From: Parafannyhessea umbonata
GTDB taxonomy: Bacteria; Actinomycetota; Coriobacteriia; Coriobacteriales; Atopobiaceae
Direction of reading: 5' to 3'
Length of the DNA stretch: 64,000 nt
Assembly: GCF_900111255.1 (NCBI RefSeq)
Contig: NZ_FOGP01000003.1
Coordinates: forward strand, 62,001-126,000
Numbering within the stretch: position 1 is the stretch's first letter; each line of letters opens with the position of its first letter. Position numbers and translations under genes: made by a program. Positions 19,700-23,641 of this stretch are shown in pieces. The notes beneath the pieces are model-generated. The model saw nothing but the letters and a program-made list of their open reading frames with translations, had not been told where the DNA came from and made no database searches.

Positions 19700-21316
19700 C
19701 TATGAGCGCGGGGCCGCACGTCTCTCGTCCGCACCGCGCCGATTCTCTCCCCCGAGCCTCTGGATGGGCGCGATGTCCTGCGTCACCTCGAGTGCGCCCA
19801 GGTAGCTTCCCTCGCCATCGCGCACCGCAAAGTATCGGATGTAGAGGAAGTTGTCGCCGCGGTGGATCCAGAAGTCAAAGGAGTCTCGCTCGCCGCTCCT
19901 GAAGTCGTCGAGCACCCGATGGACCATGGCCTGGCTCTTGGGAGGGTGGCAGTCGTAGACGTCACGGCCCAGACAGCTCTTGGGACGTGGGAAGAACCTG
20001 CCGTCGCCGTGGCTGAAGAAGCACGTCTTGTCATCCTTGTCGACGAAGGTTATGTCCAGGGGAATAGCTGCGAAGACCGCCTCGAGCTCGTCGGGTGCGA
20101 ACGAGCCCGTGGAGAGGTGGACGCGGCCGCCCGCAAATCGCCCGTTGGAGGCCTCGACGCCCTTCGCCGCACCGGCTTCCACAGAGGCACTCATGGCGCG
20201 CAGCTGGTCGTTGGCAAGATCAAGAGGATTCGCTTTCCAAGAGACGGGCTCGTCGATGAAGCAGTAGCCCTCCTCGCCCGACTCATCGGCAATCTGCGTC
20301 CACTCGGTGGCCGTCAGGGTCTCAAGCGCAATTGGCATCAGGACGTTTTCCTCCTTGGAGACCATGGCCTCCGCCTGGTCCGCCGCATCGGCAAGCTCGG
20401 TTGCCACGGCGCGCAGGTTGCGGGCGTTTGGCTCTCCCAGGGCAACCTCGACCAGCGAGCGGGCGACCGAAACGAAGTCGCGAACCTCGTCATCCTTCCC
20501 CCACATGACCTTGGACGGGCCGTCCACCCCATGCCGCTCAAGGTGAGGGAATATCAGCTCCTCCTTGCGCCTGTAGTGAGAGAAGACCTGGCCAAAGTCC
20601 CGCACGTCCTCGGAAAGCTCGCGGGCAAGAGAGGCATCGCTGCCCTGCGGGTCCGCCTCGAAGAGCGCCCGTACGGCCTGAGCGTGAGGCCTGACGCGCG
20701 CGTCTACAAAGGCCTGTATCCTCTCGTTCTCGTCGCGCAGGACGCGGACGGGGTGGCCGGGAGCGTCCTCGGGGTTGCCCTTGTGGCCGGCGCACGAGAC
20801 GGCCCCCTCGAAGAGGGTCGCGTGCACGTCGCAGAGGCGCTGGACTTCCCTTACGGGGACGCCGCCACGGATGAGCGCCTGCTCGGCAGCCGCGATCTCC
20901 CCACCCGAGACGTCCTTGAAGTTCCGGCGGAAGTCCTCTTGCACGTCCTCGACGACCTCACCCGAGCCCAGGCGCTCGAGCAGATCCTGAAGCAGCCTCA
21001 TTCGCTCCTCAGGGCTCTTGGCAACGGAACGCCCGCGAGGCTTTCCCTCGCATGCAGAGGCGACCACGCCGGCGCCGCGCACGCCCCTGCCCTCGACCTC
21101 GAATCCGGATTGCATAAGGGCATCCACCACCGCATCGAGCGTGATGCCCTTGTGGCGGCAGCCCTTGGCGAGAGTCATGAAGCGCCCAACAGTCGCAAGA
21201 CGCCCCGGGCGTGTTATCTCGTTGAAGCCCAGTCCCGCCATGATGTCCACAACCTCGGGATGGGAAGTGCAGACGTCGAAGATAGACTCGTCCACGCTGA
21301 TAGCCCTGTCGTTCAT
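19700..21316 (-). CDS. DUF1858-DUF438-hemerythrin-PAS sensor protein
   Basis: 538 residues from the ATG at 21316 with GAAGGAG upstream. The DUF1858 domain (about 1-70) is followed by DUF438 (about 100-165, the RNFKDVSGGEIAAAEQALI block). A hemerythrin HHE region (about 185-335) carries a His/Glu di-iron set (HYRRKEELIFPHLE, KEENVLMPIALE). A C-terminal PAS domain ends LGALEVTQDI. Relatives respond to oxygen, nitric oxide or nitrosative stress. A perfect palindrome sits at -41.5 of its predicted promoter, suggesting Crp/Fnr-type activation. Confidence 0.88.
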   Translation of the reverse strand: MNDRAISVDESIFDVCTSHPEVVDIMAGLGFNEITRPGRLATVGRFMTLAKGCRHKGITLDAVVDALMQSGFEVEGRGVRGAGVVASACEGKPRGRSVAKSPEERMRLLQDLLERLGSGEVVEDVQEDFRRNFKDVSGGEIAAAEQALIRGGVPVREVQRLCDVHATLFEGAVSCAGHKGNPEDAPGHPVRVLRDENERIQAFVDARVRPHAQAVRALFEADPQGSDASLARELSEDVRDFGQVFSHYRRKEELIFPHLERHGVDGPSKVMWGKDDEVRDFVSVARSLVEVALGEPNARNLRAVATELADAADQAEAMVSKEENVLMPIALETLTATEWTQIADESGEEGYCFIDEPVSWKANPLDLANDQLRAMSASVEAGAAKGVEASNGRFAGGRVHLSTGSFAPDELEAVFAAIPLDITFVDKDDKTCFFSHGDGRFFPRPKSCLGRDVYDCHPPKSQAMVHRVLDDFRSGERDSFDFWIHRGDNFLYIRYFAVRDGEGSYLGALEVTQDIAPIQRLGGENRRGADERRAAPRS

Positions 21317-21356
21317 GCTCACTCCTTCTGTTCGGGGCACGCTTCGGCTGGGTGAA

Positions 21357-21399
21357 AGTATATGTCGGTAAACTACTAGGGTTTGTTGCCGAAGCAACA
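21357..21399 (-). promoter_or_regulatory. Promoter of the hemerythrin gene with a perfect 6-4-6 palindrome
   Basis: On the minus strand a -10 of TATACT lies at 21362-21357, predicting a start near 21350. TGTTGC-CGAA-GCAACA at 21384-21399 is a perfect inverted repeat centred 41.5 bases upstream, the classic position of a class II Crp/Fnr-family activator. No good -35 box exists, which fits activator dependence. Confidence 0.65.
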
Positions 21400-21526
21400 C
21401 CATAATGACTCGACCAAGAAGGCCGGAAGCCTCACCCGCAGCGCAACGGTGCCCAGGGCGGCCACATGCGGAAGTCGAAGCCCGGTCAGGGACGATAAGT
21501 CACCCTTTCCCGATACCACATGTAAT

Positions 21527-21544
21527 TATGAGTGAATGCTCATA
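21527..21544. promoter_or_regulatory. Upstream copy of a metal-type operator
   Basis: TATGAGTGAATGCTCATA, an inverted repeat with TATGA/TCATA arms. It closely matches the second copy at 21602 and resembles ArsR/SmtB metalloregulator sites. It lies just upstream of the -35 box. Confidence 0.65.
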
Positions 21545-21559
21545 TCCTAATAATATCTG

Positions 21560-21588
21560 TTGACCACAGAGGTTTTATGGCGTAGCAT
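21560..21588 (+). promoter_or_regulatory. Promoter of the Zn/Cd P-type ATPase gene
   Basis: TTGACC (21560-21565), a 17-base spacer and TAGCAT (21583-21588). It lies between the two operator copies. Confidence 0.65.
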
Positions 21589-21601
21589 ACGGAGCCATAA
21601 G

Positions 21602-21619
21602 TATGAATGATTGCTCATA
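21602..21619. promoter_or_regulatory. Downstream copy of the metal-type operator
   Basis: TATGAATGATTGCTCATA, differing from the copy at 21527 at two positions. It covers the region just after the predicted transcription start, so a bound repressor could block initiation. The remaining bases of this gene-free stretch (21400-21526) show nothing else recognisable. Confidence 0.65.
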
Positions 21620-21640
21620 TCTTCACGTTAGGAGGAGAAG

Positions 21641-23641
<2,001 letters not shown>

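Follow-up and report, generated by a model that had tools for sequence, protein, structure and literature searches.

In the HcpR regulons of anaerobes, a Crp/Fnr regulator is co-localized with hcp, the operator is palindromic and hemerythrin-like genes are often among the predicted regulon members (Rodionov et al., 2005, PMC1274295, cited here from excerpts of the article). The HcpR operators published in these excerpts are wTGTGAnnnnnnTCACAw, TTGACnnnnGTCAA and GTAACnnnnGTTAC. Within wTGTGA, R180 of the regulator is tied to G3 and residue 181 to A6, and variants of residue 181, Ser included, are said in the same excerpts to change the operator (Rodionov et al., 2005). In other anaerobes, hcp has been linked to nitrosative-stress defence (excerpt of PMC12915319). 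HcpR of Porphyromonas gingivalis is described as an NO-responsive heme protein that is required for hcp expression under nitrosative stress (excerpt of PMC12750200), and HcpR2 of Desulfovibrio desulfuricans has been modelled as a repressor of hcp (excerpt of PMC5701242). The PDB entry 9day is judged, from the peptide around Met68, to be HcpR of P. gingivalis.

Similar to the regulons of Rodionov et al. (2005), the locus described in this study combines a palindromic operator with a hemerythrin-like target and, in relatives, with a regulator whose gene adjoins hcp. Different from them, hcp is missing from the own genome of the locus (G000), whose tie to hcp thus runs only through homologues, and the locus belongs to the Coriobacteriia, a class that is not named in the excerpts of PMC1274295. 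Its motif, TGTTGY-N4-RCAACA, also differs from the operators listed above, a comparison to which the motif of the Ser-181 species does not belong. The regulators of this study share with P. gingivalis HcpR (excerpt of PMC12750200) their membership of the Crp/Fnr family and an NRQ helix and, in relatives of the own genome, the link to hcp. Our literature search found no report of a HcpR-type site or circuit in Coriobacteriia, none that pairs HcpR with Coriobacteriaceae and none that pairs DUF438 with hemerythrin.

Architecture of the hemerythrin-PAS promoter

In the window, which is the whole 64-kb stretch of DNA that was analysed, a DUF1858-DUF438-hemerythrin-PAS_10 protein of 538 amino acid residues is encoded on the minus strand at 19700..21316. 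Its ATG at 21316 is preceded by a ribosome binding site, AAGGAG, at 21322..21327 (minus strand). The protein carries PF08984, PF04282, PF01814 and PF13596, each above its curated cut-off, which agrees with an earlier note on this DNA that had called the product a DUF438/hemerythrin/PAS protein. Its named homologues at 50–57% identity are Olsenella, Lancefieldella and 'Atopobium' records, which places the host near them within the Coriobacteriia.

Upstream of this gene, the 16-bp operator TGTTGCTTCGGCAACA, a predicted HcpR-type site at −41.5, is located on the minus strand at 21384..21399. It is a 6-4-6 palindrome with zero mismatches; the 16-mer at these positions is TGTTGCCGAAGCAACA, and its minus-strand reading is TGTTGC-TTCG-GCAACA. 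The −10 element TATACT (21357..21362, minus strand) follows 21 bp downstream of the 16-mer. The transcription start computed from TATACT is 21350, and by sequence arithmetic the palindrome centre at 21391.5 falls at −41.5 relative to this predicted start. The corresponding −35 position, CAAACC (21380..21385, minus strand; 17-bp spacer), whose edge is overlapped by the operator, matches TTGACA at 2 of 6 positions. A consensus scan of the minus strand from 21300 to 21660 found no sigma-70-like promoter. Class II Crp/Fnr promoters have an operator centred at −41.5, a weak −35 and an ordinary −10. The hemerythrin-PAS promoter is the same in all of these features, with the start here being a predicted one. 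The coordinates and the −35 score thus bear out a perfect 6-4-6 palindrome at −41.5 with a poor −35, as the earlier note had it.

Counted irrespective of sequence, perfect 6-4-6 palindromes number 47 in the window, compared with a mean of 27 in shuffled sequences (range 17–34, 30 shuffles), and the 324-base intergenic region contains one, with at least one being found in 7% of its shuffles. Since such palindromes are common in the window as well as in shuffles, the palindrome by itself is not significant, and its weight comes from relatives, where both its sequence and its spacing are conserved. A single copy of the exact motif TGTTGC-N4-GCAACA is present in the 2.06-Mb genome. When up to one mismatch was allowed, TGTTGY-N4-RCAACA was found at six places of the genome, the operator included, vs. 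16 places for a reversed control pattern. At the other five one-mismatch places, TAnnnT is absent at 21 bp on either side; one of them (L152) is just before an antitoxin-like frame, and the rest are in or between frames. Moreover, no further copy of the box was found in the 9 kb read around the candidate regulator gene described below. Within its own genome only its position marks the operator out, and additional copies of the motif, whose absence the earlier note had named as refuting, were not found there, where the operator is a singleton; this counts against the reading of the note. As judged by eye, the one-mismatch box of L152 (G000:C3:79508-79523) is inside a longer repeat just before a RelB/DinJ-antitoxin-like frame and looks like an antitoxin operator.

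Conservation of the predicted operator in relatives

In a family search of 140 genomes, in which the hemerythrin-PAS gene was counted at E values up to 1e-60, this gene was found in 36 genomes. The upstream regions of 28 of them were read first, and the remaining eight were read later as a test. In both sets combined, a similar palindrome with TAnnnT exactly 21 bp on was found in 22 of the 36 genomes, and five more, the Lancefieldella-type genomes G023–G027, have CAnACT at 21 bp. Among the first 28 upstream regions, a box score of at least 10 (maximum 11) was reached in 18, vs. 0.43% of dinucleotide shuffles, and a score of at least 8 together with TAnnnT at exactly 21 bp was reached in 17, vs. 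0.36% of shuffles; these shuffle rates, like the Fisher values of the comparison, overstate independence, because the compared genomes are related. A best score of 8 alone was attained by 35% of the shuffles, and weak boxes were therefore counted only together with a −10. In G087, TAGGAT is found 20 bp after the box. Five of the first 28 upstream regions (G002, G003, G006, G044, and G071) have no box at the hemerythrin gene.

Five of the eight upstream regions read later, those of G031, G040, G043, G060, and G121, fit exactly. No box was found in G034 and G035, and the G050 contig breaks off close to the gene. Since G040 and G121 nearly duplicate genomes read before them, only G031, G043, and G060, which represent genera absent from the first 28, add new lineages. 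The first set contains 22 hemerythrin promoters with a box and, at 21 bp, nAnnnT, which is a loose −10 criterion; all 22 have best −35 matches of 1–3 of 6. The variants of the box stay symmetric between genera, changing from TGTTGC/GCAACA to TGTTGT/ACAACA, with CGTTGG/CCAACG in G049, and the spacing is constant. The four bases of the palindrome loop vary among relatives, with examples being AACC, AATT, TTAT, GGTG, and AGTT. The class II geometry had previously been read from one sequence; the relatives were an independent test of it, in which the box, the spacing and the weak −35 were kept. In the Lancefieldella promoters, the actual −10 may be not the CAnACT at 21 bp but a conserved GTAGACT located farther downstream. 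The Lancefieldella-type upstream regions L095, L096, L098, L101, and L102 also have AAAGTAAnCCnnnGTAGACT in common, downstream of the box, and a second similar copy is found in L095.

The box was also found before hcp in 9 of the 11 hcp loci read, and in relatives the predicted operator is thus shared with hcp promoters. Eight of these boxes score at least 10, and the ninth is the symmetric CGTTGG variant of G049, a genome that has its own box variant at both hcp and the hemerythrin gene. All nine boxed hcp promoters have nAnnnT at 21 bp, and their best −35 matches are 2–4 of 6. Among the 11 hcp upstream regions, that of G042 is without a box and that of G036 has a poor one. In G023, G024, and G027, the box is in the intergenic region that separates hcp from a Crp/Fnr gene of divergent orientation. 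An exact-motif search of 16 genomes returned a match in nine of them. Sorted by eye, the matches L122, L123, L130, L132, and L139 were rejected because they are inside coding-looking frames, and L125 and L133 because they are parts of longer terminator-like repeats; L126, L127, and L134/L135 were sorted in the same way, with L134/L135 being hcp.

Boxes were also observed at other genes. In G031 (L190 763-778), a perfect box separates the regulator gene from a small cupin gene of divergent orientation, with a consensus TATAAT exactly 21 bp cupin-ward, and a related cupin gene of G115 (L128 1501-1516) has a box with CACCAT at 21 bp. Judging from these sites, the regulator probably has the cupin gene as a third target. 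In G023 (L137 1501-1516), a box upstream of an ApbE-family (flavin transferase) gene has TAAAAT at 21 bp. The cupin and ApbE boxes are single observations.

The candidate regulator

The candidate regulator of the own genome is encoded outside the window, at G000:C7:92720-93379. The protein matches PF00027 and PF13545 above cut-off and thus possesses the cNMP-type sensor domain and the HTH of the Crp/Fnr family. Homologues were searched with a profile built from four sequences, at a threshold of E up to 1e-18, and were found in 56 of the 140 genomes; the profile score of the own regulator is inflated, as the protein is itself one of the four rows. It is 36% identical to the hcp-adjacent regulator of G087. 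The own regulator is divergent, with a long branch and a tentative placement in the tree.

With hcp counted at E values up to 1e-80, the regulator was present in all 43 hcp genomes, and in 28 of them it was within 400 bp of hcp. A matching Crp/Fnr gene, such as the earlier note had proposed to look for, was found, and its homologues adjoin hcp. The regulator was also present in 32 of the 36 genomes with the hemerythrin gene vs. 24 of the 104 others. Of the 12 hcp-less genomes with the hemerythrin gene, eight have the regulator, vs. five of the 85 that lack both hcp and the hemerythrin gene, so that 13 genomes possess the regulator but no hcp, eight of which, including the own genome, have the hemerythrin gene. 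G002, G003, and G006 have neither regulator nor box. G044 and G071 are counter-examples, in which the regulator is present and the hemerythrin gene is without a box, and in G007, whose genome is 80% complete, a box is present and the regulator was not found. In G031, the regulator gene is 0.6 kb from the hemerythrin gene, with one small frame between them. In G071 (L181), a Crp/Fnr regulator gene adjoins the hemerythrin-PAS gene in divergent orientation, and the TGTTG box is absent; this regulator perhaps uses a different operator.

The box, its exact spacing to the −10, its conservation, its use at hcp promoters and its co-occurrence with the regulator are all observed. On these grounds, the palindrome is quite probably a class II activator site of the HcpR-type Crp/Fnr regulator (C7:92720-93379), which would switch on the hemerythrin-PAS gene. 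A dimer of the regulator would occupy the palindrome at −41.5, make up for the poor −35 and recruit RNA polymerase by class II activation, and the hemerythrin-PAS gene would be turned on as a result. We infer from the same observations that the C7 regulator would be what binds the box, that it would activate rather than repress, and that NO or a related stress would be the signal. With such a site, a regulon type that is already known would acquire a new operator, a new lineage and a new target. The Coriobacteriia would have a concrete, testable nitrosative-stress circuit, and a four-domain hemerythrin protein that is still uncharacterised would be connected to the hcp regulator.

Operator specificity and alternative explanations

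Alignment to CRP-family structures placed R180, S181, and R185 of the own regulator in its recognition helix, RSALSR. When TGTTG is read in the register of wTGTGA, G3 is kept and A6 is changed to G, which would fit R180 together with S181. Moreover, in the half-sites that go with R185 regulators (G000, G053, G054, and G055), position 6 of the 16-mer is C in 12 of 12 cases, vs. 8 of 50 for regulators without R185. These counts are for sites other than those of G071, which has R185 and no site, of G031, G043, G060, G121, G007, and G052, and other than the poor hcp sites of G036 and G042. As R185 goes with C at position 6, the own regulator is favoured as the binder, with R185 and sites being found together in only two genera.

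It is unlikely that the box is bound by another factor, such as a second Crp/Fnr protein or a regulator from another family. A second full Crp/Fnr gene does exist at C3:3665-4219, beside the gene of a pyruvate formate-lyase activating enzyme, and its product has several cysteines near the N-terminus, which we take to resemble those of oxygen-sensing FNR. The helix of the C3 protein, however, is PETVSR, in which residues 180 and 181 are P and E; the regulators that occur with the box have an R-[SCT] helix instead. Nor is the C3 protein the hcp-linked homologue. Given the R180-G3 rule published in the excerpts of PMC1274295, it should not favour TGTTG.

Repression by the regulator from this site has a precedent in HcpR2 of D. 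desulfuricans (excerpt of PMC5701242), and the frame of a divergent P-type ATPase gene (21641-23641), which the box might serve instead, begins at 21641. Both are quite improbable, as activators are arranged in this way, with a centre at −41.5 and a poor −35, and the ATPase gene has its own promoter-like site (21560-21588). This site, TTGACC-17-TAGCAT, is flanked by the near-identical repeats TATGAGTGAATGCTCATA and TATGAATGATTGCTCATA at 21527-21544 and 21602-21619, respectively, which presumably resemble SmtB/ArsR operators. Finally, a function of the inverted repeat as RNA, either as a cUUCGg hairpin in the 5′ leader or as a terminator, is hardly credible and was rejected: although the minus-strand reading contains a C(UUCG)G loop, the loop bases vary in relatives, the scan found no terminator-like site, no Rfam match was found, and the fixed spacing to the −10 puts the repeat upstream of the transcription start.

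With an activator site of the HcpR-type regulator thus preferred, it is possible, and proposed here tentatively, that the lineage kept a one-gene HcpR circuit after the loss of hcp, in which hemerythrin-PAS alone would serve as NO defence or sensor, and that TGTTGC-N4-GCAACA would be a new class of operator, defined by the helix with S181 and R185, with the base at position 6 depending on residue 185. Across the genera, the paired variants of regulator and operator offer a natural series from which Crp/Fnr recognition rules could be worked out.

Putative signal and sensor

Nitric oxide is the likely signal of the predicted circuit, a reading of NO or nitrosative stress that is favoured because the homologues of the regulator adjoin hcp. 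The heme ligand of P. gingivalis HcpR, Met68, is not conserved in the aligned Coriobacterial regulators, with R in G042 and T in the own protein. The sensor may thus differ from that of P. gingivalis HcpR, and the own protein is named HcpR-type for its linkage, not as a member of the P. gingivalis heme group. Instead, a C-x2-H or C-x2-C stretch is found in 20 of the 25 aligned Coriobacterial regulators, which makes this stretch a sensor candidate.

The hemerythrin region of the target protein contains few invariant histidines that might be iron ligands: H165 and H188 are found in 22 of 22 homologues and H247 in 21 of 22. In the PAS domain of the same protein (P0001), a Cys-His pair at residues 456-457 (CHPPK) is invariant in all 22 homologues, five of which are from outside the family, and is a possible cofactor ligand.
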